Source: a virus. From it: a stretch of 21,682 bases of DNA. Under the pieces are notes generated by a model that was not told where the DNA came from, ran no database searches, and worked only from the letters and a program-made list of their open reading frames with translations. Shown piece by piece: positions 6,652-19,124 of this stretch. How positions within the stretch are numbered: position 1 is the stretch's first letter; each line of letters begins with the position of its first letter. Where the stretch lies: positions 1 to 21,682 of the IMG/VR virus record IMGVR_UViG_3300009091_000068. One strand, 5' to 3'. The translations under genes and the position numbers were made by a program.

Positions 6652-6896
6652 CAAAACAGTCCGAGTTCGATTGCTGCGCCGAGCGAAAGCGTGAGGCTCC
6701 CTGAGTCATCTACATTTCGCACTTCGGACGAATCGGAGATGTCTGTGTACTTGACCCAGAATTGATCCTTATCCGTGGTTTCAAAGAATTCCTCTACTCG
6801 ACAGAGAATTCTTTTCTGACCTTCGTCGTCATCAATTACACTAATTCCTTCGATTGTCACTTCAACGTCATCATAGGTCTTGCGGGTTGACGCCAT
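6651..6896 (-). CDS. Small acidic hypothetical protein, 81 residues
   Basis: Unrecognised. ATG at 6896 is preceded by AAAGGAGG about ten bases upstream, a good ribosome site. The protein is strongly acidic (DDDEG, EEFFETTDKD, DISDSSEV, NVDDSGS) and alternates charged and hydrophobic residues like a small beta-rich fold. It has no Cys pair, membrane segment or nucleotide motif. It overlaps the upstream HTH gene by 26 bases and the SbcD-like gene by one (TGATG), so all three are co-translated. An acidic protein beside recombination genes could mimic DNA or bind SSB, UvsX or nuclease subunits; this is inference only. Confidence 0.75.
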   Translation of the reverse strand: MASTRKTYDDVEVTIEGISVIDDDEGQKRILCRVEEFFETTDKDQFWVKYTDISDSSEVRNVDDSGSLTLSLGAAIELGLF

Positions 6897-7188
6897 GGCG
6901 GATAGCCTCCTTTATTTCTTTAGTAATTCTACTTCTTACGTGTTGCTGTGGAAGATCATACTTCGCGCAGAGTTCACCAATCTGCGCTCCGGCAAAATAG
7001 TCTTTTATCAAGGCTCGATCTCGTTTCTCCCGAAGGATCTGGAGCGCGGACGGAAGAAGTCTCCCGGAATAAAGCTTACACAGATAAACGGCTTTGACTT
7101 CTCCGATGACGGAAACTAATTCGAAAAAATTAAGTTTTTTCGGATATTGGGAGTATCCTGTTTTCACTTTCGATTTGATTTCGCTCAA
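6871..7188 (-). CDS. Putative helix-turn-helix protein, 105 residues
   Basis: The start is TTG at 7188, supported by GAGGA about seven bases upstream; no ATG lies near. The C-terminal 50 residues (ALIKDYFAGAQIGEL, then KYDLPQQHVRSRITKEIKEA) read as a helix-turn-helix of the sigma-4/GerE-like type: a helix, an 'IGELCAKYDLP' turn, then a basic recognition helix. The N-terminal half is helical and basic without a recognised motif. It sits between a membrane protein and an acidic protein in the recombination operon, overlapping both. It may regulate transcription or bind DNA structures; the target is unknown. The HTH call comes from sequence pattern alone. Confidence 0.7.
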   Translation of the reverse strand: MSEIKSKVKTGYSQYPKKLNFFELVSVIGEVKAVYLCKLYSGRLLPSALQILREKRDRALIKDYFAGAQIGELCAKYDLPQQHVRSRITKEIKEAIRHGVNPQDL

Positions 7189-7450: not shown

Positions 7451-8526
7451 TACCCTACCCCATCAACGACGCCTTCTTCATCTTCGCTGGGAATGAGTTC
7501 GACATTCTGTTCGAAGATTAGCTTCGTTTTTGCTTTAAGTGCTTCGTATACTTCTGGGTTTGACCAGGATTCTTCTATGAGCATGTGCTTTCTCATCTGC
7601 CGGCCTTCGAAGTCTACCCATCCTTTCTTTGAACCAAATGCTCCTTTAGCGTACAGGAACTCGACAATGGAAGCATGGTCATCAATTCCAAGATGTGGTC
7701 CACGAACATTGATGAAGTACTCGACTTCTTGACCAGGAGGATTAAATCGGTTCTTCACGATTGTCGCTCGACAAGTCAGAGACTGAATCTCACCCGCTTC
7801 TTTATTCCGCTTTGTCGTGATGAGCTTGATGCGGGTAGAGGCGAAGTACTTAGGACCAGTACCTCCCCAGCTTATCGTCTTCTCTGCAAAAGGCATGGTT
7901 TGCATACGGAAGATCTCGTGGTTGGTGAAGATGAAAGCTACGTTCTCAGTTGAGATCTCCCCAACCAACTTCCGTAATGCCTTTCGGATGATTCGTTGAG
8001 CAAGCCCCATGGCGATCTCTTCATCAAAAGACTGCAATTTCTCTGCCAGAGGGGGGAGAGCGGCAAGGGAGTCTAATCCGATGACAATAGTGTTTTTTTG
8101 GTTCCTATCACGGGTCTTCTGGATGATGCTGTCTACGGCGATCCAACAGTCTTCTTGCGTTTTGACTTCTATGTGTCCAAGTTCTTCGTCACGAATTCCA
8201 CAGAGGCGCTTGGCGAAATCTTTACTAGTGCCGAACTCGGCATCGAGGTAATATGAGTATCCACCGCGCTTCTGATTTTGCGCCAGAAAGTCCAGTTCAA
8301 GAAGTGTTTTCCCAGTCTGGACATCACCATAAACTTCCATCACTCTTCCTACAGCTGCACCGCCGCCGATGGCGAGATTGAGCAAAGTGCTGGAGGATGG
8401 AATATACTCTGTTGGATCAGAGGAAAAGAGTTCGTCGCCCATAATCCCAGCGGTGATCCTGGTTCCTAATCTCTTTTTTAGATCCTTTAAAACAAGTCGA
8501 AGTACATCTTCAGTTTGTGTAGTCAT
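7450..8526 (-). CDS. uvsX: UvsX/RecA-like strand-exchange recombinase
   Basis: A 358-residue RecA-fold ATPase that should coat single-stranded DNA and carry out homologous pairing during recombination-dependent replication and repair. Walker A is at 67-74 (GDVQTGKT); the E97 of YYLDAEFG matches the catalytic Glu of RecA; Walker B ends in D152 (IVIGLDS). FTNHEIF and SWGGTGPKYFAS occupy the places of RecA's L1/L2-region segments. An acidic C-terminal tail (SEDEEGVVDG) is typical. Its neighbours, the gp32-like SSB upstream and the UvsY-like mediator before that, favour the T4 UvsX type over host RecA. Translation starts at ATG 8526. The best ribosome site (GGAGGG) is 14 bases away, within a hairpin loop (see 8533-8553). 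Confidence 0.9.
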   Translation of the reverse strand: MTTQTEDVLRLVLKDLKKRLGTRITAGIMGDELFSSDPTEYIPSSSTLLNLAIGGGAAVGRVMEVYGDVQTGKTLLELDFLAQNQKRGGYSYYLDAEFGTSKDFAKRLCGIRDEELGHIEVKTQEDCWIAVDSIIQKTRDRNQKNTIVIGLDSLAALPPLAEKLQSFDEEIAMGLAQRIIRKALRKLVGEISTENVAFIFTNHEIFRMQTMPFAEKTISWGGTGPKYFASTRIKLITTKRNKEAGEIQSLTCRATIVKNRFNPPGQEVEYFINVRGPHLGIDDHASIVEFLYAKGAFGSKKGWVDFEGRQMRKHMLIEESWSNPEVYEALKAKTKLIFEQNVELIPSEDEEGVVDGVG

Positions 8527-8532
8527 AGCTCA

Positions 8533-8553
8533 GTTGCTCTCCCTCCAAGCAAC
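8533..8553 (-). promoter_or_regulatory. Hairpin presenting the uvsX ribosome site in its loop
   Basis: In the minus-strand RNA, GTTGCT and AGCAAC form a perfect 6-bp stem around a 9-base loop TGGAGGGAG. The loop holds the only good ribosome site for uvsX. Linear spacing from GGAGG to the ATG at 8526 is about 14 bases, longer than ideal; folding of the intervening arm would shorten it. The stem is seen in the sequence. The control role is inferred. Confidence 0.5.
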
Positions 8554-8581
8554 AAATCCGGGTTAGACAACTTTCCCCTTT

Positions 8582-8625
8582 CTGGGCAACTCTAGGAGGA
8601 ACGTGATCGGATGGATGTTGCCCAG
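8582..8625 (-). repeat. 9-bp inverted repeat in the ssb-uvsX spacer
   Basis: CTGGGCAAC (8582-8590) and GTTGCCCAG (8617-8625) are perfect complements separated by 26 bases. They lie in the 119-base spacer between the SSB stop and uvsX. No U-tract follows on the minus strand (AAAGGGG instead), so it is not a standard intrinsic terminator. The GTTG/CAAC bases also occur in the nearby ribosome-site hairpin, so the two structures could compete. It may be an mRNA stability or translation-control element. Confidence 0.5.
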
Positions 8626-8645
8626 CAAGCCCGGCCCTGACGGTT

Positions 8646-9476
8646 TTAGTATTCGCGATCTTCTAGTAATGATCTGTCGATCACCTCGTCTACATCATCG
8701 GATGAAGCATCGTCATCTGGGAAGAGGTTCTGCTGTGCGACAGGTCTTGGCCGAGAAACCGGGCGCGGAGCGGAAGTGTGTCTTGGTTCCATGAGCCATT
8801 CAGTCAATGTGTTTGCTGGAACGATGTATCGAGAAACGTAGTCTTCGAGTGACCTTCTCTTCTCTCTCCAGTCCTTGACTGGGATCTCGGACTTATCGCC
8901 GGTCGGCTGGACGTTCTTGATGATATTCCACTTTTCCTGTTTCCCGTATGTAACGGAAAGCACCTGGCCTTCAGTCGGATGGACGATATTTCCCCAGCGC
9001 TTGAACATGGGCTGGATAAAATCTGCCATGGCGGACTTCGAGACTTCCCATGTCATGACTCCAGACTTCGGGTCATCCATGTTTACAATGTTCATGACAA
9101 ACCGAGGACGGCATCTGCACTTGTTCGCAAGCTTGATCGTCGTTTTGTCTTCGACGTCGCCCATGCGTGCTTCTGCGTACATTCCGTTGACGGCGCGGCA
9201 CATCGGGCAGTCCTGTTCTAGTGTTTCCTTGAGACAGGCAACTGCTTTCCGATTCGGATCTGCCCCACCTGCGATGAGCAGGATGTCGTAGTGTAACCCA
9301 AACTTTAAAAAGTATAGTCCTTTCGTCGTTGGTGGGAGAATCCTGATGTTGAATTCTCCTGGCTCCTGGGGAGCGAATCGTCCGGACGAAGCAGTTTCTC
9401 GTTTCCAGACTTCATTCAGCAAATCCATATCGAGCGTGTCATCATCAATTTCGTGTTGTTTCGATCGTGCTGGCAT
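8646..9476 (-). CDS. Single-stranded DNA-binding protein, T4 gp32-like
   Basis: A 276-residue protein that would bind single-stranded DNA during replication and recombination. Three parts resemble T4 gp32: a short charged N-terminal segment; a core with a zinc pattern H62-X18-C81-X8-C90-X2-C93 (in T4: H64, C77, C87, C90); and an acidic C-terminal tail (DDDASSDDVDEVIDRSLLED) of the kind that recruits partner proteins. A Pro/Arg linker (PRPVSRPRPV) joins core and tail. A second Cys pair (CRC near 118) lies just after the zinc motif. ATG at 9476 has AAGGAG about nine bases upstream. It heads a transcription unit with its own predicted promoter and structured leader (9513-9625), and uvsX follows. 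Confidence 0.85.
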   Translation of the reverse strand: MPARSKQHEIDDDTLDMDLLNEVWKRETASSGRFAPQEPGEFNIRILPPTTKGLYFLKFGLHYDILLIAGGADPNRKAVACLKETLEQDCPMCRAVNGMYAEARMGDVEDKTTIKLANKCRCRPRFVMNIVNMDDPKSGVMTWEVSKSAMADFIQPMFKRWGNIVHPTEGQVLSVTYGKQEKWNIIKNVQPTGDKSEIPVKDWREKRRSLEDYVSRYIVPANTLTEWLMEPRHTSAPRPVSRPRPVAQQNLFPDDDASSDDVDEVIDRSLLEDREY

Positions 9477-9512
9477 TCGGTGTCTCCTTCTCTGAATCGG
9501 TGTAGTTCAACG

Positions 9513-9591
9513 TTGGCGGGGTTCCGAGCGAAAAGCCTCTAGGGGTTCTATCTCAAGAAGGTGGAAAGGTTTTGCTTGGGAACCCCGCCAA
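9513..9591 (-). promoter_or_regulatory. 13-bp inverted repeat in the ssb mRNA leader
   Basis: TTGGCGGGGTTCC (9513-9525) and GGAACCCCGCCAA (9579-9591) are perfect complements separated by 53 bases. Imperfect further pairing is possible inside (GAGCGAAAAGCC with GGTTTTGCTTG). The outer arm begins at the predicted transcription start of the promoter at 9597-9625, so the mRNA would begin with a long stem about 40 bases before the SSB ribosome site. No U-tract follows, so it is not a terminator. Likely roles are 5'-end stabilisation or translational control of SSB (T4 gp32 controls its own mRNA). The 11-nt arm core recurs at 18898-18908. Confidence 0.6.
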
Positions 9592-9596
9592 TTCGA

Positions 9597-9625
9597 AAAA
9601 TACCACGGAAAAATTTCCGTGTCAA
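9597..9625 (-). promoter_or_regulatory. Sigma70-type promoter for ssb-uvsX with a palindromic spacer
   Basis: On the minus strand there is a perfect -35 box TTGACA (9625-9620), a 17-base spacer (9619-9603) and a -10 box TATTTT (9602-9597), with start expected near 9590. The -35 box overlaps the TGA stop of the upstream 76-residue gene. An 18-bp palindrome, CACGGAAA-AA-TTTCCGTG (9604-9621), covers nearly the whole spacer and looks like an operator. The same palindrome followed by TATTTTT could also be a weak intrinsic terminator for the upstream gene. Both readings fit, and both could apply. Confidence 0.6.
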
Positions 9626-9852
9626 TAGTCGTGCTTCATTTTTCGATTTAGCTCGGATATCGTTTTTTCCCAGGTTTCTTTGAATCCGAGCGCGTTAAAA
9701 TAAAAATCGAGTTCATCTGCTAGTTCCATAGAAATCTCGATTTTTGTTCCAAACGGAAGAAATTCTATTTCTGGAGTAAGTCCGTCAGATAGCATTAACT
9801 TACCTAGATCATTCAAGGTCTGCGTATCGGGATAACGCCATGCGACGCGCAT
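9622..9852 (-). CDS. Hypothetical protein, 76 residues
   Basis: Unrecognised. The ATG at 9852 (MRVAWRYPDTQ) is preferred; a TTG at 9861 would add three residues. Both lie inside the end of the UvsY-like gene (44-base overlap) and neither has a strong ribosome site, so coupling is likely. The protein mixes a beta-like segment (EIEFLPFGTKIEI) with an amphipathic C-terminal helix (ELADELDFYFNALGFKETWEKTISELNRK), suggesting a small globular alpha/beta protein. Its stop codon lies within the -35 box of the ssb promoter. The position between UvsY-like and SSB genes hints at a recombination-linked role, but no motif supports one. Confidence 0.6.
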   Translation of the reverse strand: MRVAWRYPDTQTLNDLGKLMLSDGLTPEIEFLPFGTKIEISMELADELDFYFNALGFKETWEKTISELNRKMKHDY

Positions 9853-10300
9853 TCCGTCCAAGGGTTCGTGTTTCTGAATCCATGGGAAGTGCTTGCGACA
9901 TCTGGATGTATTTTAGGCTGCGTTCTCTCTGCTCATAAGCCCGCACGACACCACGGACCAACGAGAGGTAGTGTGTGGCTTCGACGACTTTGTCGTCTGC
10001 TGCCACGGTGCGTTCATCAACACGAATTGCAGCTTTGATCGCCGCGTCGGTGACACGTCCAACGCCTTCCACCCCCGTACTCCGTAGCGTTCGATGGATG
10101 GTAGCTTCGAGAATGTCACGTTCAAGACTAAGATAGGAGACGGTTGCCTCCGCTCGCGCACATACACGAACGGCTTGGACGTATCTGATCGGCTGTTCGG
10201 CCCATTCTTTTGCAAGGTTTTCTTCATCGATTCTTAAGAGCGCTTTCAGCTCCTCCAATTCAGTATCCTGCTCTAACTTTGTCATGTCTCTCTGTTTCAT
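9809..10300 (-). CDS. UvsY-like recombination mediator (putative)
   Basis: A 163-residue, almost entirely helical protein. Its layout resembles phage proteins annotated as UvsY-like mediators: an N-terminal 'EELKALLRIDEENL' helix, then W-x-x-Q-P followed by an Ala/Arg-rich helix, a long LE-rich helix, a conserved-looking 'VTDAAIKAAI' segment near residue 90, and a final helix with YEQRERSLKYI. UvsY-type proteins load UvsX onto SSB-covered DNA, and the genes for SSB and UvsX follow two genes downstream. I chose ATG 10300, which overlaps the glycosyltransferase stop as ATGA and has AGGAG twelve bases upstream; an ATG at 10327 lacks any ribosome site. The assignment is from pattern and context, not a catalytic motif. 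Confidence 0.6.
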   Translation of the reverse strand: MKQRDMTKLEQDTELEELKALLRIDEENLAKEWAEQPIRYVQAVRVCARAEATVSYLSLERDILEATIHRTLRSTGVEGVGRVTDAAIKAAIRVDERTVAADDKVVEATHYLSLVRGVVRAYEQRERSLKYIQMSQALPMDSETRTLGRNARRMALSRYADLE

Positions 10301-10938
10301 GTCAATGCGAAGCTCCTGTGTTCCCATTTTTTTTGGAACTTTTCTCGATACTGCATATGCTCACGCATCCAAGGGATACCTACTGTGGCACACATTTCTC
10401 CAAGATGCGTCACATGTCCATGAAAGGGGATGTGAGGAGAAATGCCACGAGACTCTTCAACCTGGAGACAAAAATCTTCTACACACAAGTGGAAGCCATC
10501 GAACGTTTCTGTGTCAAACGAAAAACCGAATAGTGATTTCGGGATGAATATGGAGCAACTGTCCAACGTAGAAACGAACCGAGGAGCAACCGAGTACGCG
10601 TCCCCAGGAGGAGAAGCCGACCAGATGATATCCCCTCCAAGAGATTTCCCGACGACTCCGACGAGTCTGTCGTGAAGCCATGCGTGGTGCGCAAAGAGCA
10701 TGTCGTGGTGTTTCTGGGCGAACCTGATGTCTGCGTGGATCATCCCGACGACATCTATGTCATGCGTTTGCCCGAGTTGTAATAGGTAATTCCCGAAGAA
10801 TCCGTTTCCCTGGAACATCTTCGTGGAATTATTCACTCGAATCAGGATGTCTGCGCCCATCTGGTCCAAGCCTTCGAATCCTTCTGCTGTTCGGCCGAGG
10901 ATTCCGAGGAGGTAGCGCATGAGAAGACTATCGCACAC
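10297..10938 (-). CDS. Glycosyltransferase-like protein, GT-A fold (family 2-like)
   Basis: Up to 213 residues. Features of GT-A glycosyltransferases: ADILIRVNNS (second strand of the nucleotide-binding half) at 29-38; HADI at 68-71 in the place of the metal-binding DxD; GVVGKS near 94-99; an acceptor-side segment STLDSCSIFIPKS; and FDTETFDGFHLCVEDFCLQ near 141-159, where the acidic residues would include the catalytic base. A PFHGHVTHLG segment follows. Substrate is unknown: DNA, phage structural protein or host glycan are all possible. The start is unsure. GTG 10938 and ATG 10920 both lack ribosome sites, and the usual first beta strand of the fold is not clear in this frame; another frame just upstream resembles it (see findings). 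Confidence 0.7.
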   Translation of the reverse strand: MCDSLLMRYLLGILGRTAEGFEGLDQMGADILIRVNNSTKMFQGNGFFGNYLLQLGQTHDIDVVGMIHADIRFAQKHHDMLFAHHAWLHDRLVGVVGKSLGGDIIWSASPPGDAYSVAPRFVSTLDSCSIFIPKSLFGFSFDTETFDGFHLCVEDFCLQVEESRGISPHIPFHGHVTHLGEMCATVGIPWMREHMQYREKFQKKWEHRSFALT

Positions 10939-11315
10939 TGATGGGAACTAGTCAATTGAAGAAAATCAATAACGATTTCAGGAAATTCCAAATCCGCTAA
11001 GTACTTGATTTTACTCGTGAAACGAGTCAAAATTTTCTGTAAGTACCTGTTTTTGCTAAGGATTCTCTAATCAGAGTGTAAAGCTTCCCATGTTCTAGTT
11101 CTCCACTTTAACCTTCAGTAAAAGACACCGACCTTTACTTCGTGTGTACTTTACTGATAAGCATTACCGAATCACTAAATGTAACACGACTGTAACATAA
11201 GGGATCGGTTTGCGGAGAATACGAGGCCTATTCTCCGCACGGTGTCCCTGGGGGTCTAGACCGTTGCCGCGTGGCTGTACGGGGCTCTCTGCGCGTTCTA
11301 CGGGCATTCTCGTCG
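10939..11315. other. 377-nt non-coding region rich in inverted repeats
   Basis: No convincing gene was found here. From left to right: a hairpin at 11008-11033 (ATTTTACTCGT, loop GAA, ACGAGT, one bulged C, AAAAT); nested arms CAGTAAA/TTTACTG at 11116-11122 and 11150-11156 with an inner 4-bp stem; tandem TGTAACA copies at 11180-11186 and 11191-11197, spaced 11 bp; a perfect 11-bp stem with 7-base loop at 11211-11239; and a palindrome GGTCTAGACC at 11253-11262. The right part (about 11205-11315) is noticeably GC-richer than its surroundings. No U-tract terminator and no good promoter were recognised. A replication origin, regulatory region or structured RNA would all fit. Confidence 0.55.
11211..11239. 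repeat. Perfect 11-bp hairpin with 7-base loop
   Basis: TGCGGAGAATA (11211-11221), loop CGAGGCC, TATTCTCCGCA (11229-11239). This is the strongest simple stem in the window. It lies about 75 bases downstream of the methyltransferase-like gene in the transcribed direction. AAACCG follows on the minus strand and CGGTGT on the plus strand, so it lacks the U-tract of an intrinsic terminator. Confidence 0.7.
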
Positions 11316-11990
11316 TCACGGGGTGGCGCTTTGCCCTTTCACGAACGCCATTGTCTGAACTTTGTCTGATTCCACTATCGATTCGAGTAGAAGATACTGA
11401 TATCGACTCATCCAATCAGAAATTCCCCTTTCGGAGAAGTACCACGGTACGGTTTCAGGGGAGAAAAATGGTGATGTCTGAAGTTCGAAGGGTTCATCCA
11501 GGTCGAATAGAGGTAATGAGATTACTACGATCGTTGGACGAACGAGCATCAGAAGCTTTTCTGGTCGTTCGATACGCGGGAATTCGTCCATGATGGCGAG
11601 CAGTGCGACATCATCTGTTGGAATGTACTCTTCAATGTACGCGCTGATATCGAGGAGTTGGTGGACTGTCTTGAAGGAATGTCGTGGTTCGTATCCAACG
11701 ACGGAGTATCCGAGTTCGTAAAGGCTTGCGAGAAGGTATCCCGTTCCCGCCGGAGCGACGACGACTTTTCCTGGAGGGATATTCGGTGATTCAAAGCTCC
11801 GTTGGATGAGGTCAATTCTGGCTTGCATTCGTTGTTCCTGATTTGAATCGTACTCGAATTGACGCAGAGCAGCAGCTTCTTTGACGTCTGGAAGCGGAAG
11901 ATTGACCATGCTTTCCGCTACTCCGCAGGATGAGCAGAGTTGCATGTAGTGAAAATTCCTCATCAATTTGTTGCAAATGGAACAAAACAT
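11316..11990 (-). CDS. Zinc-ribbon protein with class I methyltransferase-like domain
   Basis: A 224-residue protein starting at ATG 11990 with AAGGAG seven bases upstream. N-terminal zinc ribbon: C3-x2-C6 and C19-x2-C22 (FCSIC, LCSSC). After a helical linker comes a Rossmann-like segment, KVVVAPAGTGYLLASLYELG near residues 75-94, then VVGYEP at 97-102. These match methyltransferase motif I (normally GxGxG, here PAGTG) and the acidic end of the second strand. LLMLVRPTIVVISLP resembles the fourth strand after 'lLkPgG'. The architecture resembles Methyltransf_23-type proteins with Cys-rich N-termini, some of which act on sugars. Substrate is unknown, and the altered motif I leaves activity in doubt. 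It follows the HNH gene and precedes the structured gap and glycosyltransferase-like gene. Confidence 0.65.
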   Translation of the reverse strand: MFCSICNKLMRNFHYMQLCSSCGVAESMVNLPLPDVKEAAALRQFEYDSNQEQRMQARIDLIQRSFESPNIPPGKVVVAPAGTGYLLASLYELGYSVVGYEPRHSFKTVHQLLDISAYIEEYIPTDDVALLAIMDEFPRIERPEKLLMLVRPTIVVISLPLFDLDEPFELQTSPFFSPETVPWYFSERGISDWMSRYQYLLLESIVESDKVQTMAFVKGQSATP

Positions 11991-12000
11991 TGTATGCTCC

Positions 12001-12561
12001 TTAAGAGGAAAGGTCTGCCAAGGTGTATCTTCTATCCTGGTTTTTTCCACTCCAGCGTTTTTTCCGTGGAGGGATTTCGTCTTCGCATCCTGGGACGAGA
12101 TGTTTCCATGTTTCTCTACGCACGATTAAAGAAATTGTCATTTTACTTACATTATATTGTTTTGCAAGCGCATTCATACTTAATTGCCTTTCATCATACA
12201 TTCTACGAATATTGAGCACATCTTGATTTTCTAATTTTGCACAATGGTGGTTTTCCCCGAAGTCTTTTCGACTTACGAGCTTCCGATGATACGGACTGAT
12301 GCAATCGATATCTTCGCATGTTCGGGCTAGGCGTTTGTCGTGAGGGAGTTTTCCGTAGACATGTTCCCATACGCTATTGTATGACCGATACGGCCACTTT
12401 TTGTTCCAGAACCAGCATTGCGATGGGCCGTCGGAACAGTAGATGTTCCAGTAAAAAGCATCGCCGTCATCTTTTGCACACCGAGCATTATATTTCACTT
12501 CTTCTTTTTCTTGGAATGTTAAAAGATCATCATTCTTATCGCCAACTTTGTCATCAATCAT
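12001..12561 (-). CDS. HNH-type (homing-like) endonuclease with C-terminal HTH
   Basis: A 186-residue protein starting at ATG 12561 (AAAGGAG about eight bases upstream), overlapping the polymerase stop as ATGA. The centre follows the phage HNH pattern: CWFWN near 49-53, WEH (H67), YGKLP, then C82-EDID-C87-ISPYH92, where a catalytic or zinc His usually stands near the first Cys (HxC...NP.C). The region around residue 81 has T-C instead, so the active site may be altered. Residues 108-152 form the helix-turn-helix (DVLNIRRMYDERQLSMNALA, NVSKMTISLIV). It is free-standing, not inside an intron, immediately after the DNA polymerase gene, a favoured neighbourhood for homing endonucleases. It likely spread as a mobile gene. 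Confidence 0.75.
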   Translation of the reverse strand: MIDDKVGDKNDDLLTFQEKEEVKYNARCAKDDGDAFYWNIYCSDGPSQCWFWNKKWPYRSYNSVWEHVYGKLPHDKRLARTCEDIDCISPYHRKLVSRKDFGENHHCAKLENQDVLNIRRMYDERQLSMNALAKQYNVSKMTISLIVRRETWKHLVPGCEDEIPPRKKRWSGKNQDRRYTLADLSS

Positions 12562-15038
12562 ATCTGTATCTCCTTTAGATTCCCGAAATGGATTCCCGTT
12601 TTGATTTCCACAGGGAGTGGGACGAGAAGCCAATCTTTGAGTACGTCTTGTGGAGTAGTCTCCATGATGTTTTTGCAGAGCTTTGCCGCAGAGTGAACGT
12701 CTCCTTCCGGGACTTCTAGGAGGAATCCGTCATGGAGATCATTAACGAAATACCACGGTAAGTTCTGCTTCCGAATGTGCCGAAGAATGGCGTTCATGGA
12801 CAGCTCAAGAAGATCGTGTCCGAGGCTTTGGACAACGTGGTTCCATCCTTCACGGAGCGCACGCTGTTGGATTTTTGGATCATTGGACTTCTTGGCGTGG
12901 GGAAGCCATCGAATGTGTCCAGTAGGCGTCGTGACATACCCGTTTAATGCTGCGAAGGATTGGTATTCCTCGATGGTTTCAAAGAGATCGACGTATTCTT
13001 GCCGCATCGCGGCAGCGACTGCCTTGCACTCTCTTTCATCCCAGATGAGTCCAGCTTTGTCGAACATCTCGTTCTGGATTCTGGACCACCCTGCGCCGTA
13101 AATGACGGCGAAATTGATGATCTTGGCGCATGGAGAGCGAGAAATATTTAGCTTCTTCGCGACGAGCGTGTGGGCATCATTAGGTTTTGGATTACATCCT
13201 TTCAGCATGTTTGCGTCATGCGAGTAGCAAGCAGCGAGTCGAAATTCGAGCTGCTCATAGTCTGGAGAAATGAACTGATATCCAGGCCGGGCTTTAATCA
13301 GCATACGAATATTGAATGGACTTTTCTCAATCGGACCATTGAATATTTCTTTTGGAATTCGACTTCCGTCAGGGCAATTTTGCGAGTTGGGTCTGGACGA
13401 TCCACGCCGAGCACTTTCGGTGAAATTGTGAAAGTCCGGATGAAGCCGACCGTCCTCCCATATCTTTTCGGAGAATCCCTTGATGAACATGCTGTAGTAA
13501 TAGCTGATTTGAGTAGAAGCGAGCATGCTCATGAGGAGCCTTCGTGCGTTTGGTTGGATGTCTTGTAGAATCATCATTTTAATAGATTTCGCGTCTAGAC
13601 TATCCTTTTTCCCATTTGTGAGAATCCCAGAAGGTTCTACTCCGAAAATTAAGAATAGTAGTCCTGCCATCTGTGGATAACTTCGAAGAGAAAACTTCTT
13701 TTTCTGAGCACGGAGTGAATCTGCGTGGGCAGCAACCTCGGGGATTTCAAGGACACGTGAGTAAATTTGCTCTTTTTCTTCTCTGAAAAACTTCTCTCTC
13801 CAAATCCATTCATCCCAGTCGATGAGTAAGCCGTGTTTTCGCATCTCGATGTTCAGAAGATAGCTCGGCTTTAATATGTTGTTATAAAAGAATTTTTGTC
13901 CTGTGTTGACGATTCTTTTCGAATACTTGTGAGCAATTTGGATCGTTGTGTCTCCATCACCAGCTCCGTATGGGCTCGCAAGGATATGGAGGGGGATTTC
14001 TCCATAATTCGTGATGTCATGGGTTTTCTTGAATTCTTCAAGTTCATCCTGGTATCCACCAGTGTCCGCATCAGTATACGCGAGTGCTTTTAGGGCATGG
14101 GTCGTGTCTGGACCGTGGATTGCCATGCTGCCGGTCATAGTGTCGAAGGCGACGTCAATCTCATGGATTGGAACTCCGAAGCATCGTTCGGCAACGATCA
14201 GATCTGGTCTGGCGTCATGGACGATGAGTTTTTTCGTTCGGAGAAGATGCGCAATTTTGTCTTTGACATCTCGGCGCCCAAGGAACACGGACTCTTGATG
14301 GTCTATTGGGATGAAAACGCCTGTTCGTTTCTTTGTAGAGAAGATGACTCCAAGACATACAAGGTTTGTTCCAAGCCATTCTAATGGTTCAAACTCCGTG
14401 TCAAACGCTAGGATATCAGCTTTCTCAAGATCGGCCAGGACATCAGCCAGCTGTGCTTCAGAGGAGACGACAGTATAGCGTTTCTTTAGTCTGGTGAGCT
14501 TGTCTGTTTTTCCATAGATCCCATCCAAATACGACTTTGCGACTTCAAGGTCCCGAAGAAAGTCCCGTTCCCGACGTGGATCGGCCAGAAGGCCGGCGGG
14601 GCTGAATGTCGGTAGGTACATAATTCCGTCTTGCTGGATGATCTCCCCGTGCCGGCGGGTAATATTGGAGAGGTTGAGAACTGATCGGAGTGGAATTGCG
14701 CCAAGCGTAATGACAAGTTTGGGCTGCAATGCTACGATGTCATTGCGGATGAATTGTTTACAGTACTTGATCTGCTTTGTCGTAGGCTTTTCGCCAGTGC
14801 AGCGGACAGCGTACCCACGGGTTATAGAGTACTTATGTAATCCTATTTTTCGTTCAAGCCTTTTGAGGTATTGACTCGCATCTCCCTGTGCAGGAGCCCC
14901 GATCTCATCGTCGAGACGTTCTGGAGACTCTGAAACGTAAAGGATGTCGTGTGGTTCTCTTCCAACGGTTTCTAGGAAGGGATTTTTTGCACATTCCCAT
15001 CTTCCGCATGCTTTGCAGTCGTCAGGGATGTTTTGCAT
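12558..15038 (-). CDS. DNA polymerase, family A, with N-terminal uracil-DNA-glycosylase-like domain
   Basis: The 826-residue replicative polymerase. Residues 1-185 resemble family 4 uracil-DNA glycosylase, with iron-sulfur Cys C8, C11, C80 and C93; the catalytic motifs are altered (SESPE for GEAPG, FSPAG for HPS). Residues 205-390 form a 3'-5' exonuclease with D213/E215, D279, D299 and D361/D363 in the expected motifs. The polymerase domain has motif A D593-Y...E598-x-R600, motif B R634...K639...F643...Y647-G648, and motif C H769-D770-G771 (usually HDE). F643 is kept where T7-like enzymes have Tyr. ATG 15038 has AAGGA about 12 bases upstream and overlaps the basic protein gene by 17 bases. 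A similar fusion is known from SPO1-like phages with modified DNA bases. Confidence 0.93.
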   Translation of the reverse strand: MQNIPDDCKACGRWECAKNPFLETVGREPHDILYVSESPERLDDEIGAPAQGDASQYLKRLERKIGLHKYSITRGYAVRCTGEKPTTKQIKYCKQFIRNDIVALQPKLVITLGAIPLRSVLNLSNITRRHGEIIQQDGIMYLPTFSPAGLLADPRRERDFLRDLEVAKSYLDGIYGKTDKLTRLKKRYTVVSSEAQLADVLADLEKADILAFDTEFEPLEWLGTNLVCLGVIFSTKKRTGVFIPIDHQESVFLGRRDVKDKIAHLLRTKKLIVHDARPDLIVAERCFGVPIHEIDVAFDTMTGSMAIHGPDTTHALKALAYTDADTGGYQDELEEFKKTHDITNYGEIPLHILASPYGAGDGDTTIQIAHKYSKRIVNTGQKFFYNNILKPSYLLNIEMRKHGLLIDWDEWIWREKFFREEKEQIYSRVLEIPEVAAHADSLRAQKKKFSLRSYPQMAGLLFLIFGVEPSGILTNGKKDSLDAKSIKMMILQDIQPNARRLLMSMLASTQISYYYSMFIKGFSEKIWEDGRLHPDFHNFTESARRGSSRPNSQNCPDGSRIPKEIFNGPIEKSPFNIRMLIKARPGYQFISPDYEQLEFRLAACYSHDANMLKGCNPKPNDAHTLVAKKLNISRSPCAKIINFAVIYGAGWSRIQNEMFDKAGLIWDERECKAVAAAMRQEYVDLFETIEEYQSFAALNGYVTTPTGHIRWLPHAKKSNDPKIQQRALREGWNHVVQSLGHDLLELSMNAILRHIRKQNLPWYFVNDLHDGFLLEVPEGDVHSAAKLCKNIMETTPQDVLKDWLLVPLPVEIKTGIHFGNLKEIQI

Positions 15039-15384
15039 GAATATAAGGTTCCTTTCTTTTCTTTTTTAAAGCCCTATGCTTCTCCGAATTAAATGGAAAT
15101 CTGATAATTTGTAACCTATGGTCGATGGCGTATTGATATGGAACCCAAATAGTGCAAGGAGCAAAATACTTTCTTCGTTTCTTCGGACCACGTGGGCTGA
15201 ATCCAAGTATTCGGCTTACGAATAGACTGACTTCGTCTGGTCGAGCATAAATACGAATACGTGCTATGACTCTCGCGATGTTCGTTCGAAGGGTCACGGT
15301 GCGCCCAGATATGGGGATGCCGTGCTTTACCCGGAGGTAAATGACTAACTCTGCTCTTGGAAAGAGCAGTGCCAGCACTTCCAT
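15022..15384 (-). CDS. Basic protein of unknown function, out of frame with the primase end
   Basis: Open frame downstream of the primase. The shortest conventional start is ATG 15384 (120 residues), with no ribosome site. The frame stays open far back into the primase gene, to ATG 15627 or 15741, and the residues encoded before 15384 (for example TSFATRLKDFQKWAQATYSE) look protein-like. The C-terminal half is very basic (RGPKKRRKYF, KHRALKKKRK), suggesting nucleic-acid binding. It may be an independent gene or the C-terminal extension of the primase reached by a +1 frameshift at the primase stop (CTC TGA at 15437-15442). It overlaps the polymerase start by 17 bases. No family recognised. Confidence 0.5.
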   Translation of the reverse strand: MEVLALLFPRAELVIYLRVKHGIPISGRTVTLRTNIARVIARIRIYARPDEVSLFVSRILGFSPRGPKKRRKYFAPCTIWVPYQYAIDHRLQIIRFPFNSEKHRALKKKRKEPYIHAKHP

Positions 15385-15436
15385 GGGAATTGGGAGAAGA
15401 ACTGGGACGCGAGGGATAAAAGGATCATTTGGAAGT

Positions 15437-16285
15437 TCAGAGTACGTGGCTTGTGCCCACTTTTGAAAATCTTTGAGCCGCGTCGCAAAGGATGTTAAAG
15501 TGTCCCATTTCGGCGGCTGAAACGCTTCCAGGATCTTTTCCTTCGTACGATATCGTAACCACTTGTGGGATGAGTCCTGACAAGCAGTATTTAATTCGTG
15601 CAGTTGCGTCACGTCCAGCGTCGTCATTGTCGAGTGCGAGGAAGACAGCTCTCGGACGACAGGACAAGAGGGCTCGTTGTTTGGCGTCGTTCCAGGTGCA
15701 TCCAACGACGGCGACGCCATATTTGGGAATTCTGAGGGCATCTAGTGGCCCTTCAACCAAGAGAACAACCCCTGTTTTCGCTGCTCGATCAAGGTTGAAT
15801 AGCACATTCGGGACTGCTCCTTCTGATTTTGACGGGGAATCATACTTCAGTTTACATGAATTCGTATAATCACGAGCCTGAAAATACACAAGATCACCAT
15901 TCCTAAAAAAAGGAATGATGATCCGTCCAGCGTATCGACCTTCGGTACAAAACCCAAGGCTGTAATCTAAAATTACAGCTTCGGGAATGTCTCTGCTTTT
16001 CAAGTATTGGAGCGCAATCGTTCCATGAGTACTCCAGAAATCCGTACGGTATTCGGTAGGGAGATGGAGTTGTACAGTCGGTGTGTCTACTTGATCTTGA
16101 AAATCAATTTCAATACTAAGATCGAAGCGTTCAATGAGTTCGGCTGCATTTCGTGTTTTGAATCCACAACGAAAGCAATGTCCGAATCCTTTCTGTGTAT
16201 TGATGTAGAGCTTTCGTTTGTAATCGGATTTTCCTGTGCGTGGAACATGGATCGCATCGGGACAGTTGATCCGAATTTCGCTCAT
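15437..16285 (-). CDS. DnaG-type DNA primase (zinc finger plus Toprim)
   Basis: A 282-residue primase that would make RNA primers with the DnaB-like helicase encoded upstream. The N-terminal zinc-binding motif is C8-x4-H13 ... C37-x2-C40 (CPDAIH, CFRC). The Toprim domain has the catalytic E178 in LLVEGPLDAL and the metal pair D219/D221 in LALDNDDAGR, ending with the usual KDP segment near 250. It is shorter than cellular DnaG (about 580 residues) and lacks an obvious helicase-binding C-terminal domain. That domain may be missing, or could be supplied by the out-of-frame basic protein that overlaps its end. ATG 16285 has no clear ribosome site and starts 12 bases after the 26-residue membrane peptide. 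Confidence 0.9.
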   Translation of the reverse strand: MSEIRINCPDAIHVPRTGKSDYKRKLYINTQKGFGHCFRCGFKTRNAAELIERFDLSIEIDFQDQVDTPTVQLHLPTEYRTDFWSTHGTIALQYLKSRDIPEAVILDYSLGFCTEGRYAGRIIIPFFRNGDLVYFQARDYTNSCKLKYDSPSKSEGAVPNVLFNLDRAAKTGVVLLVEGPLDALRIPKYGVAVVGCTWNDAKQRALLSCRPRAVFLALDNDDAGRDATARIKYCLSGLIPQVVTISYEGKDPGSVSAAEMGHFNILCDAAQRFSKVGTSHVL

Positions 16286-16297
16286 GGATGAATAGGG

Positions 16298-16378
16298 CTA
16301 GAAAGAGATCGTGGCTACGATGGTTAGAAAAACGAAAATCATATACGCCGCAGAAAGAAGATAAACTTCATATGGCAT
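16298..16378 (-). CDS. 26-residue single-helix membrane peptide
   Basis: A short frame between thyX and the primase gene. The ATG at 16378 has one of the best ribosome sites in the window (AGGAGG about nine bases upstream). The peptide starts MPYEVYLL and is nearly all hydrophobic (AAYMIFVFLTIVATISF), so it should form one membrane helix. Overlooked short frames of this kind are common in phages. Its function is unknown; it may couple translation to the primase gene 12 bases downstream, or modify the host membrane. Confidence 0.65.
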   Translation of the reverse strand: MPYEVYLLSAAYMIFVFLTIVATISF

Positions 16379-16409
16379 GTGCGTTCCCTCCTGAAAAGGA
16401 GAGTATACA

Positions 16410-17324
16410 TCAACGCACTGCGTTAGGCAATTCATGAAGGCGGTTTTGGGCTTTTTGTGGTGAAATGCTTTGTTCGGGATTGAGACAAAAATCAATTTCT
16501 TCACGGGGGTGCCTCTTTTCAAAAAATTCTTTTTGCTCTCTTTGGGAAAGCTCGTCAGATTCAGTGTCTAGGAATGCAATTTGCTTTCGTTCCATCCGAG
16601 AGAAGTTCACGGCATAGAAATCGTAGTCCTCCCATGCGGCAAACGAGATAGGGAAAAAAGAATTTACGAATTTTGCAATGACGAGGGCGTAATCACGAAT
16701 CTCCTTTTGTGCATGCGGATTGAGGCGTAAAGAAAGAAAATGAAAAAGATTTCGCAAGTCCATTTTCCAAAAGAACCGGGTGTATGCACTGAGTGGAAGA
16801 ACATTTCGCGCTTGCTCTCGGGCGACTCCAAGGTTAATCAGTTCTTGGTACGTAGCGAAGTCTTCTTGTGCTTCCGTAATCATCATCCCAGCGGCGAAGG
16901 CCGAGGCATCTTGAGTACTCCGGCCTTGAGAATTGGTCGTAGATTGTGTTTTCACTTCGTCTGGAATGAAGAACGTGGGAGGCATGACTGAATACCGTCC
17001 GGAATATTCGTTCCAACTTGCTGTGCGGTGTCTGACCCATTGTCGAGCCACAAAGATAGGACAGGCGATATCGAATTTCATGACACACATCTCGAATGGT
17101 GAAAGATGTTTGTGACGATAGAGATACCGAATGAGGTGCCGGGTTTCTGAAATTTTGCGGGTTCCTGCACCGTAAGAGATCCGGGCTGCCGCCTCGACGG
17201 CTAAGTCCGACCCCATGTAATCCACGAGTCCTACGAATCCGTGATCGTGAACTGGGTAATACTCTCCGATTCCTGTGTCAAACTGCATGTCTATTTCATC
17301 TGAGTTAGTGTTGTTTTGATCCAT
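16410..17324 (-). CDS. thyX: Flavin-dependent thymidylate synthase ThyX
   Basis: Makes dTMP from dUMP with methylene-tetrahydrofolate, FAD and NADPH. The diagnostic ThyX motif RHRxxSxNExSxRY is complete at residues 98-111 (RHRTASWNEYSGRY). Other typical parts are RHLIRYLYRHKHLSPFEM before it and NVLPLSAYTRFFWKMDLRNLFHF after it. At 304 residues it is slightly long for the family because of a charged C-terminal tail of about 60 residues. ATG 17324 has AAAGGA six bases upstream and overlaps the zinc-ribbon gene by 20 bases. With the class II reductase, it gives the phage its own dNTP supply. Keeping a dTMP synthase fits a genome whose polymerase carries a uracil-recognition domain, though that link is inference. 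Confidence 0.97.
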   Translation of the reverse strand: MDQNNTNSDEIDMQFDTGIGEYYPVHDHGFVGLVDYMGSDLAVEAAARISYGAGTRKISETRHLIRYLYRHKHLSPFEMCVMKFDIACPIFVARQWVRHRTASWNEYSGRYSVMPPTFFIPDEVKTQSTTNSQGRSTQDASAFAAGMMITEAQEDFATYQELINLGVAREQARNVLPLSAYTRFFWKMDLRNLFHFLSLRLNPHAQKEIRDYALVIAKFVNSFFPISFAAWEDYDFYAVNFSRMERKQIAFLDTESDELSQREQKEFFEKRHPREEIDFCLNPEQSISPQKAQNRLHELPNAVR

Positions 17325-17490
17325 TTTTTCCTTTACGTCGAAGTTTGAATTCCTTTTTACATCCTTGACAAGTTACTTGTCCGATGACAAGATCACGATT
17401 CTCTTTGTGACATACTTCGCATTGCCACAGGAACATCTCGCACGGAGGATGGCAAAGGTCGAACTGTACTTCGTACGATTTGATTGTCAT
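17305..17490 (-). CDS. Zinc-ribbon micro-protein, 61 residues
   Basis: ATG 17490 has GGAGG seven bases upstream, a strong ribosome site. Two Cys pairs, C24-x2-C27 (QCEVC) and C41-x2-C44 (CQGC), form a zinc ribbon; two further Cys at 13 and 17 precede it. The C-terminus is basic (KKEFKLRRKGKNGSK), suggesting nucleic-acid binding. The first 33 codons overlap the helicase gene's end, which encodes a disordered Arg/Ser-rich tail, so both frames can tolerate the overlap. The gene ends 20 bases into thyX. Function is unknown; context suggests an accessory to replication or transcription. Confidence 0.75.
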   Translation of the reverse strand: MTIKSYEVQFDLCHPPCEMFLWQCEVCHKENRDLVIGQVTCQGCKKEFKLRRKGKNGSKQH

Positions 17491-18838
17491 TTGAAGTCCT
17501 CCGTCTGCTGATTTGTTGTCGAATAGAAACGTCAGTCACAAGCTCGTTATACTCCGACTCTGTGATTTCTTCGATCCAAGAGCACTCGTAATCACCTCGC
17601 CAGTAGCTCACGAGATCTTTCCGCTCATTCCGGTTCAAGAACGGAACAATTCGGAAACGGTTGACTGAATAGTCGATTGCATTTTGCTCCATCCCGAACA
17701 TGGCGTCAACTGCGAATCCTTTTCGGGTCGATCCCGATTGATGCTCTGCGCCAAGACGCTCTGCGTTGAATCCACTAGCGTTAGTTTGAGATGCCGTGAA
17801 AACAGGAACTTCATATCTTCTTCCAAGATTTCGGAGTTGAACATATATTTCACTCAGCTCTCTCCACTCTTCCATTCCAGACGGTCCTTTGAGTAAATCA
17901 GCGTAATCAATTACTGGAATTGGAGTTTTTCCATATTTTGCTTGAATCATACTCATGTGTGCGTCAATCATTTCTACGGTCGCCATCTTCGCTGGGAATT
18001 CTTTGATGATGACATCGCCTTCAGTGTACATCTCGTATTCACTTGTTTGCTTAATGATATCATCCGTAAATTTTTCGATAGAGTTCGTGGGTTTGTGAGA
18101 AAGGCACCCGAGATACCGCTGAATACATTCCTTTTGATAGATCTCTAGAGTGTAGTGTACGACAAGATTTCCCATTTGAAAAAGTCCAGCTCCAACGTTG
18201 ATGAGAAATACTGTTTTCCCACGTTTGGCTGGAGCCATGAGCGCAATCAATTCTCCTCCGTGCGCTCCTCCACGAAGGGACAGGTCAATGGATCGAAGTC
18301 CACAAGGAAAGCTCGGGTTTACGTCTGCCTGAATGGCTACTGGCCAATCCTTACGAACGCTGATTCCAAGATCGGTAAAAGTAACTGGAAGTTTCTGAAC
18401 GTTGGACACATCGAGTGCGAGTTTGTCAATGTTGAATGATTGGAGGTTTCTCCAACACTGTCCAACGATTCCCGCCGCTTCTGCACGCTGGCAAAACGCA
18501 GTAAGTTCACTCTGGATAAACTGACGATCCAGATCTTCTTCTACGATTTGAAACAATTTACGTGTAGCGTCGATGTACGCTTCTTGGATTGTGGCATCAA
18601 AGACATGCTTACTCACTGCGACAACTAGGATTTCTTCAGTCGGAAGCTTTCTGTATTCATCCCAGTACGTGAATAGTGCCTCCGTAATCGTTTTATACAC
18701 TGCGGCGTTAAAATACTTCGTTTTGACTATCCCACGAGCCCGAGCAAGAAAATCCTGATCTCTGGCCATGAGTCCAACCAAAAGTTCTTGGAACTCTGGA
18801 GCAAGAAAATCTTGGAATTGCAGGTCATCAGTCGGCAT
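17393..18838 (-). CDS. DnaB-like replicative helicase
   Basis: A 481-residue RecA-fold hexameric helicase. The N-terminal helical domain (about 1-150) matches the DnaB N-domain in place and size. In the ATPase domain: Walker A at 202-209 (APAKRGKT, with the A-x-P-type start usual in DnaB), catalytic Glu in HYTLEIYQ near 232, Walker B D311 (VIDYADLL), the TASQTN segment near 348, and an Arg-finger region NRNERKD near 402. The C-terminal 45 residues are Arg/Ser-rich and probably disordered. I chose ATG 18838 (MPTDDLQF), directly behind a run of eight G. An in-frame ATG at 18874 would add 12 odd residues with no ribosome site. With the primase downstream it would form the primosome. Confidence 0.9.
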   Translation of the reverse strand: MPTDDLQFQDFLAPEFQELLVGLMARDQDFLARARGIVKTKYFNAAVYKTITEALFTYWDEYRKLPTEEILVVAVSKHVFDATIQEAYIDATRKLFQIVEEDLDRQFIQSELTAFCQRAEAAGIVGQCWRNLQSFNIDKLALDVSNVQKLPVTFTDLGISVRKDWPVAIQADVNPSFPCGLRSIDLSLRGGAHGGELIALMAPAKRGKTVFLINVGAGLFQMGNLVVHYTLEIYQKECIQRYLGCLSHKPTNSIEKFTDDIIKQTSEYEMYTEGDVIIKEFPAKMATVEMIDAHMSMIQAKYGKTPIPVIDYADLLKGPSGMEEWRELSEIYVQLRNLGRRYEVPVFTASQTNASGFNAERLGAEHQSGSTRKGFAVDAMFGMEQNAIDYSVNRFRIVPFLNRNERKDLVSYWRGDYECSWIEEITESEYNELVTDVSIRQQISRRRTSNDNQIVRSTVRPLPSSVRDVPVAMRSMSQRES

Positions 18839-18935
18839 ACCCCCCCCTATGGCACATATAGTGCATACATACAAAATTTATTTATGGCGCCAGAACAAAC
18901 CCCGCCAAGAAAGAAATACCCATTCTTTTGATCAT
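18839..18935 (-). promoter_or_regulatory. Helicase leader with G8 tract and the shared ssb-type motif
   Basis: The 97-base gap before the helicase contains, in transcribed order: GGTATTT (18920-18914), a 5-base gap, TTGGCGGGGTT (18908-18898), the palindrome TGGCGCCA, an A/T-rich stretch, the stem GCAC-TATAT-GTGC, and eight G (18847-18840) one base before the ATG. The first two elements also occur in the same order in the ssb promoter and leader, where GGTATTT overlaps the -10 box. No good -35 box was found here. It may be a promoter with its leader, or a processing or regulatory site. Confidence 0.45.
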
Positions 18936-19124
18936 TTATTTCATCTGTGTGACAGACCCACGGTGTTTTAACAAAGAAATATGCTTTCCAATAGCCCATT
19001 TTTTGACGATCGGCGGGGCAATGGTAATAATATTGTCTTTTGTCTTCACTGCGATTGTCCACCACGGGGAACGGCAATACCACCATGCAGAGTCATCCGT
19101 AAATGCTTTCGAGCTTTTCTCCAT
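18936..19124 (-). CDS. Small Trp-rich conserved-looking phage protein, 62 residues
   Basis: ATG 19124 is preceded by GAGGT nine bases upstream. The core (YCRSPWWTIAVKT, then IITIAPPIVKKWAIGK) looks like a small beta-sheet protein. It resembles a family of short actinobacteriophage-type proteins with 'PWWTV-V-T-D-G-I--APIVRK--G', although I cannot confirm this by search. Its function is unknown. It overlaps the end of the upstream 258-residue gene by 79 bases. A competing frame at 18847-19086 has no ribosome site and was not chosen. It is the last gene before the helicase leader. Confidence 0.65.
   Translation of the reverse strand: MEKSSKAFTDDSAWWYCRSPWWTIAVKTKDNIITIAPPIVKKWAIGKHISLLKHRGSVTQMK

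Follow-up and report, generated by a model that had tools for sequence, protein, structure and literature searches.

A short repeat before ssb and the helicase gene

The question raised by this locus is whether a short sequence that recurs before two replication genes marks a regulatory element common to both, or whether each copy has its own explanation. The locus lies in a virus record of 21,682 bases (IMGVR_UViG_3300009091_000068), which was analyzed over its whole length and is referred to here as the window. Its genes, carried on the minus strand, include nrdJ, SbcCD-like genes, recA, ssb, polA (with a UDG-like domain), a primase gene, thyX, and a gene for a DnaB-like replicative helicase (17393–18838, minus strand; PF03796, E 2e-14; phrog_19, E 3e-47). 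The ssb gene (8646–9476, minus strand) encodes a T4 gp32-type single-stranded-DNA-binding protein (SSB) of 276 aa (PF08804, E 3e-7; phrog_1192, E 4e-13), whose residues at the zinc-ligand positions, H62, C81, C90, and C93, are conserved in an SSB alignment (A1).

Some other features of the same strand deserve mention. The overlapping frames 10297–10938 and 10842–11030 (together 10297–11030) look like one protein with a frameshift near 10938–10960, which may be natural or an assembly error. The frame at 12558–15038 encodes a family A DNA polymerase that unites an N-terminal uracil-DNA-glycosylase-superfamily domain and a 3′-5′ exonuclease domain in a single chain. A 37-aa ORF with an APPIVKKW motif (18936–19049), easily missed at a 50-aa ORF cut, begins with a GTG that shares bases with the upstream ORF’s stop codon (GTGA).

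The initial annotation had reported two minus-strand copies of the element in non-coding gaps, and we recovered both with 0 mismatches: GGTATTT-N6-TTGGCGGGGTT at 9604–9581, in the gap before ssb (9621–9477), and GGTATTT-N5-TTGGCGGGGTT at 18920–18898 (GGTATTTCTTTCTTGGCGGGGTT in full), in the gap before the helicase gene (18935–18839), which comes after the small GTGA-coupled ORF 19049–18936. The scan that it had proposed, for GGTATTT-N(5,6)-TTGGCGGGG over the 21,682-base record, returned these two copies only, both in non-coding gaps. With the spacer widened to 3–8 nt, no third match appeared anywhere in the record. A third copy of TTGGCGGGGTT had escaped it; this one is on the plus strand (9513–9523), and it and the ssb copy are the two arms of a perfect 13-bp inverted repeat.

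The accompanying argument, that order and spacing speak against chance, holds only weakly. Dinucleotide shuffling yields a comparable pair (an 11-nt block and a 7-nt block whose spacing agrees within 1) in 26% of strands, on average 0.3 per strand, and repeated 11-mers, even 13-mers, are frequent in the window. For an 11-mer common to any pair among the five non-coding gaps, P is about 0.04. Local alignment of the ssb gap with the helicase gap gave P 0.002 when that pair is taken by itself and 0.10 when it is treated as the best of the ten gap pairs. A pattern search of all IMG/VR for GGTATTT-N-TTGGCGGGG produced 91 matches, about the chance level; 61 of the 73 distinct sites analyzed fall within open frames of at least 300 nt, and the partner arm was absent at all 73. 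The text match is real but only weakly beyond chance.

Predicted promoter and leader hairpin of ssb

At ssb, the GGTATTT block coincides with the −10 of a predicted sigma-70-type promoter (9597–9625, minus strand) that consists of TTGACA (9625–9620), a 17-nt spacer, and TATTTT (9602–9597), with TG ahead of the −10. It agrees with the consensus at 10 of 12 positions and was one of the two best promoters in a consensus scan of 8500–19100. The earlier proposal that this copy spans the −10 to the early transcript is borne out by the promoter match (TTGACA-17-TATTTT). The promoter spacer also harbors a palindrome, CACGGAAATTTTTCCGTG (9604–9621), which lies directly 3′ of the upstream ORF’s stop and gave a terminator-like match in the scan; it could act as an operator, or it could form, together with GTATTTTT, the upstream gene’s intrinsic terminator.

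Downstream of the −10, the 5′ arm of the hairpin, TTGGCGGGGTTCC (9579–9591, minus strand), holds the repeated 11-mer and starts at about +1. The 3′ arm, GGAACCCCGCCAA (9513–9525, minus strand), pairs with it perfectly over 13 bp. Together, the arms make up the window’s sole perfect 13-nt inverted repeat with a loop of 3–100, and 3% of block shuffles have one. The 13-bp stem encloses a 53-nt loop with inner helices, and the predicted fold of the leader RNA has an energy of −38.9 kcal/mol (z −3.3). The Shine–Dalgarno sequence (SD) of ssb, GAAGGAG (9484–9490, minus strand), lies outside the hairpin and is unpaired in the predicted fold. The hairpin itself is well supported.

We looked for further structure in this leader. 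Pairing of CCUUCUU in the loop with GAGAAGG at the SD would give an SD-loop pseudoknot, which was not beyond chance (P 0.11 vs. shuffled loops); no H-type pseudoknot like that of T4 was seen. An Rfam scan of the window gave nothing at or above the gathering threshold, the same scan of 8500–9660 at E up to 5 gave chance matches only, and a search for the exact hairpin gave no match. In the neighboring recA leader (8527–8645, minus strand), CTGGGCAAC and GTTGCCCAG form an inverted repeat with a 26-nt loop; the fold of this leader as a whole is no better than shuffles (z +0.3).

A hairpin motif before ssb in distant relatives

Searches for near relatives through ssb, RecA, PolA, and the helicase found none, or proteins at about 25% identity, and megablast among phages gave no match to the window. 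Distant relatives were found through NrdJ and SSB. The NrdJ search yielded 80 loci, several of which have ssb, recA, helicase, nrdJ, and thyX together at 25–60% identity, and a profile of SSB (from alignment A1) yielded 80 ssb loci. Most of the ssb leaders in these relatives present TTGACA-17-TATATT, a hairpin at about +1, and then the SD and ssb, with stem sequences that are unrelated to one another. The common motif is AG-8bp-GAGAUUUG-8bp-A-CUnUAAC, comprising an 8-bp stem, an 8-nt loop, and a bulged A, and it is located 43–77 nt upstream of the gp32-type ssb of marine phages (loci L183–L262 and the NrdJ loci). Among the relatives, sequence conservation covers both the loop GAGAUUUG and the adjoining A-CUnUAAC. 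Subclasses have G-rich 5′ arms (L203, L219, L252) or GGUUnAAACCC inner hairpins (L211, L212, L119, L249, L255), and several ssb leaders have no such hairpin (e.g., L202, L216, and L238). Rfam gave no ssb-leader match in six relatives.

Among cultured phages, Microcystis phage Mel-JY01 is the closest in its SSB; its ssb-recA is likewise preceded by a long A/T-rich stem, the fold of which is not significant (z −1.3). As a separate observation, L119:16805–16960, on a viral contig, matches a permuted tmRNA (RF04321, E 5e-7), which is possibly phage-borne or a host tmRNA.

Pairing in the motif is maintained by changes on both sides of the stem. In one alignment (A2), each of the 8 pairs has changes on both sides and 95% of cells are paired; covariation is 1.04, compared with at most 0.26 for slid partners. 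A second alignment (A3), which was built by the model from its matches and so leans to the structure, has 94% of cells paired and a covariation of 0.96. When the outer AG-CU pairs and the bulged A were included (A4), 100% of cells paired, 8 of 10 pairs had double changes, and covariation was 0.97 vs. at most 0.20 for slid partners. The alignment seeds had been picked as hairpins, which makes these covariation figures partly a matter of construction; the location of the matches is the independent test.

A covariance model (R1) matched 38 ssb loci with E ≤ 0.0013; every match fell on the strand of ssb, just upstream of the gene. On the NrdJ-selected loci, which were not chosen by ssb, the model gave ten further matches, each with ssb 46–77 nt downstream (HMM E ≤ 5e-79). 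Across 17 whole phage records of up to 190 kb, 11 had exactly one match at E < 1e-3. A model-free rule (8-bp stem, loop of 4–12, CTnTA), framed after some of the same leaders had been seen, picked out 46 of 73 ssb leaders; among other leaders it picked out 8 of 516, and for shuffled leaders the figure was 1.2 of 73. The relatives’ helicase leaders do not carry the ssb-leader hairpin motif.

Run against the window with filters off, R1 found no match at the ssb leader, and its best score, 9.6 bits, fell elsewhere in the window. The two structures differ in dimension: an 8-bp stem with an 8-nt loop in the relatives vs. a 13-bp stem with a 53-nt loop in the window. Each stands at about +1 of a predicted sigma-70 promoter before ssb. 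What the window hairpin has in common with the relatives’ motif is its place in the same series of promoter, hairpin, free SD, and gp32-type ssb; it is an analogue by position and may do the same job.

A candidate autogenous operator

On balance, we think it probable that the hairpin forms a leader acting in cis on ssb, and not part of a promoter class shared with the helicase gene; it would most likely serve as an autogenous translational operator like that of T4 gene 32. Autogenous control by gp32 is a textbook case that has been studied in T4 and RB69. The gp32 proteins of these phages repress their own mRNA by nucleating on a structured element at its 5′ side and spreading over the less structured ribosome-binding region (PMC535899, PMC3014915). 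In the window, an ordinary sigma-70 promoter would give a transcript that begins with the long hairpin TTGGCGGGGTTCC/GGAACCCCGCCAA, followed by the unpaired SD and ssb. Excess gp32-type SSB would nucleate on this leader and spread over the ribosome binding site, repressing its own translation as T4 gp32 does. The 5′-terminal hairpin may additionally protect the 5′ end of the mRNA.

More tentatively, the gp32-type ssb genes of a broad set of marine phages and, in a longer form, of the window phage may share an undescribed family of 5′-terminal hairpin operators that let SSB repress translation of its own message, with a hairpin in place of the T4 pseudoknot. The T4, T2, and RB69 gene 32 operators likewise belong to a gp32-type SSB; in them, a structured 5′ element stands some 45–75 nt ahead of the start codon, and the ribosome binding site comes after it. 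In T4, the leader has GCTATGAGGTAAAGTGTCATAGCACC ahead of an A/T-rich SD region (PMC535899, PMC3014915). The T4 operator, however, is an H-type pseudoknot with UUAAA repeats, whereas the window’s hairpin has 13 bp and a long, internally paired loop, and that of the relatives has 8 bp, a bulged A, and a conserved GAGAUUUG loop. The window sequence over the ssb ribosome binding site (9512–9477), CGTTGAACTACACCGATTCAGAGAAGGAGACACCGA, has no A+U-rich UUAAA/UAAA repeats. Because these repeats, a defining feature, are missing, we do not class the window leader as a member of the T4 operator.

Other known elements resemble the motif in part. In T4 and RB69, the gene 43 (DNA polymerase) operator lies about 40 nt before the start codon and takes the form of a simple hairpin with a conserved loop; it binds the gene product and represses translation (PMC3014915), but it serves another protein family and has a different loop sequence. 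The STAXI motif (Weinberg 2010) is a structured element sometimes found near ssb genes (PMC2864571); it consists of tandem pseudoknots, often with UUCG loops, rather than a single hairpin at the start of a gp32-type ssb transcript. Our literature search returned the T4/RB69 work and the unrelated STAXI only. A 2017 survey of 224 RNA candidates lay outside its coverage, so an earlier description is possible.

The main alternative is that the ssb hairpin is a 5′-terminal mRNA stabilizer that blocks 5′-end-dependent decay and is no protein operator. 5′ stem-loops have an established general role in mRNA decay, as in ompA, where a hairpin likewise occupies the extreme 5′ end of the mRNA, upstream of an unpaired SD. 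Such a role would suit an arm that starts at about +1 in the window, hairpins that start at +1 in the relatives as well, and a stem whose sequence varies freely while its pairing stays. It would not, however, call for a loop GAGAUUUG and a flank A-CUnUAAC that are conserved in sequence, which a pure stabilizer does not need, nor for a motif restricted to ssb; in both respects, the relatives depart from an ompA-type stem-loop and point to a specific ligand. Because the loop and 3′ flank are conserved in the relatives, we favor a specific ligand and regard stabilization by itself as unlikely.

The helicase copy

The initial annotation had offered a phage-specific promoter class as one explanation of the repeat. 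Under this scheme, the ssb and helicase operons would share one promoter or initiation class in which GGTATTT would be the −10 and TTGGCGGGG would be either the initially transcribed element or one bound by an activator. The order of the blocks is the same, their spacing is 6 and 5, both copies occupy non-coding gaps before replication genes, and the gap pair taken alone reaches P 0.002; in addition, 6871–7188 encodes a protein resembling phage late transcriptional activators (phrog_836, E 7.5e-9). However, a sigma-70 −35/−10 pair at 16–18 nt spacing occurs at the ssb copy (10/12) and not at the helicase copy, where direct reading showed no −35 at the matching distance. The element is also absent from the window’s other gaps, and as the best of ten gap pairs the match weakens to P of about 0.1. 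Nor do the relatives have a common ssb/helicase element: in 13 of 14 phages compared, the longest string common to the two leaders is within chance. We rejected a shared promoter class, given the missing −35 and the lack of further copies, and consider it improbable; the predicted ssb promoter is of the ordinary sigma-70 type. In the 1 exception among the 14 phages, L162, the ssb leader (about 424–461) and the helicase leader (upstream of the start at about 6940) share the 11-mer AGAGTTATCAC, each within a short hairpin (GTGATAGAGTTATCAC at the helicase).

A shared 5′ leader regulated together, the other explanation that had been offered, survives in part: the ssb leader looks regulated, but a leader class common to the helicase gene is unsupported, with no arm and no fold there. 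The predicted fold of the helicase leader is no better than shuffles. GGCGGGG is present in both gaps, but at the helicase it has no downstream partner, and a shared leader RNA, whether for put-like antitermination or as a common fold, was rejected on these grounds. A read-through RNA would offer the helicase copy a potential pairing partner in CCCCGCC at about 19018–19012; this was rejected, since the CCCCGCC falls inside the coding sequence of the small ORF 19049–18936 and is unused in the predicted fold. The helicase copy has no partner arm and is probably a chance look-alike; its sharing of the 5′-arm sequence only is most likely a coincidence.

A reading of the inverted repeat as an element of the DNA (operator or origin), and not as an RNA structure, is very improbable: a further palindrome in the promoter spacer (9621–9604) and GGCGGGG in both gaps would fit, but the repeat lies downstream of the −10, and the compensatory changes in the relatives’ stems, with an asymmetric conserved loop and 3′ flank, are the mark of RNA.

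Implications

For the repeated element, a structural RNA explanation of one copy replaces the idea of a shared promoter. With its covariation and its restriction to ssb, the leader hairpin of dozens of uncultured phages is a concrete candidate RNA for SSB binding. SSB binding to such leaders, if true, would show how widely, and with what RNA shapes, phages limit their own SSB.
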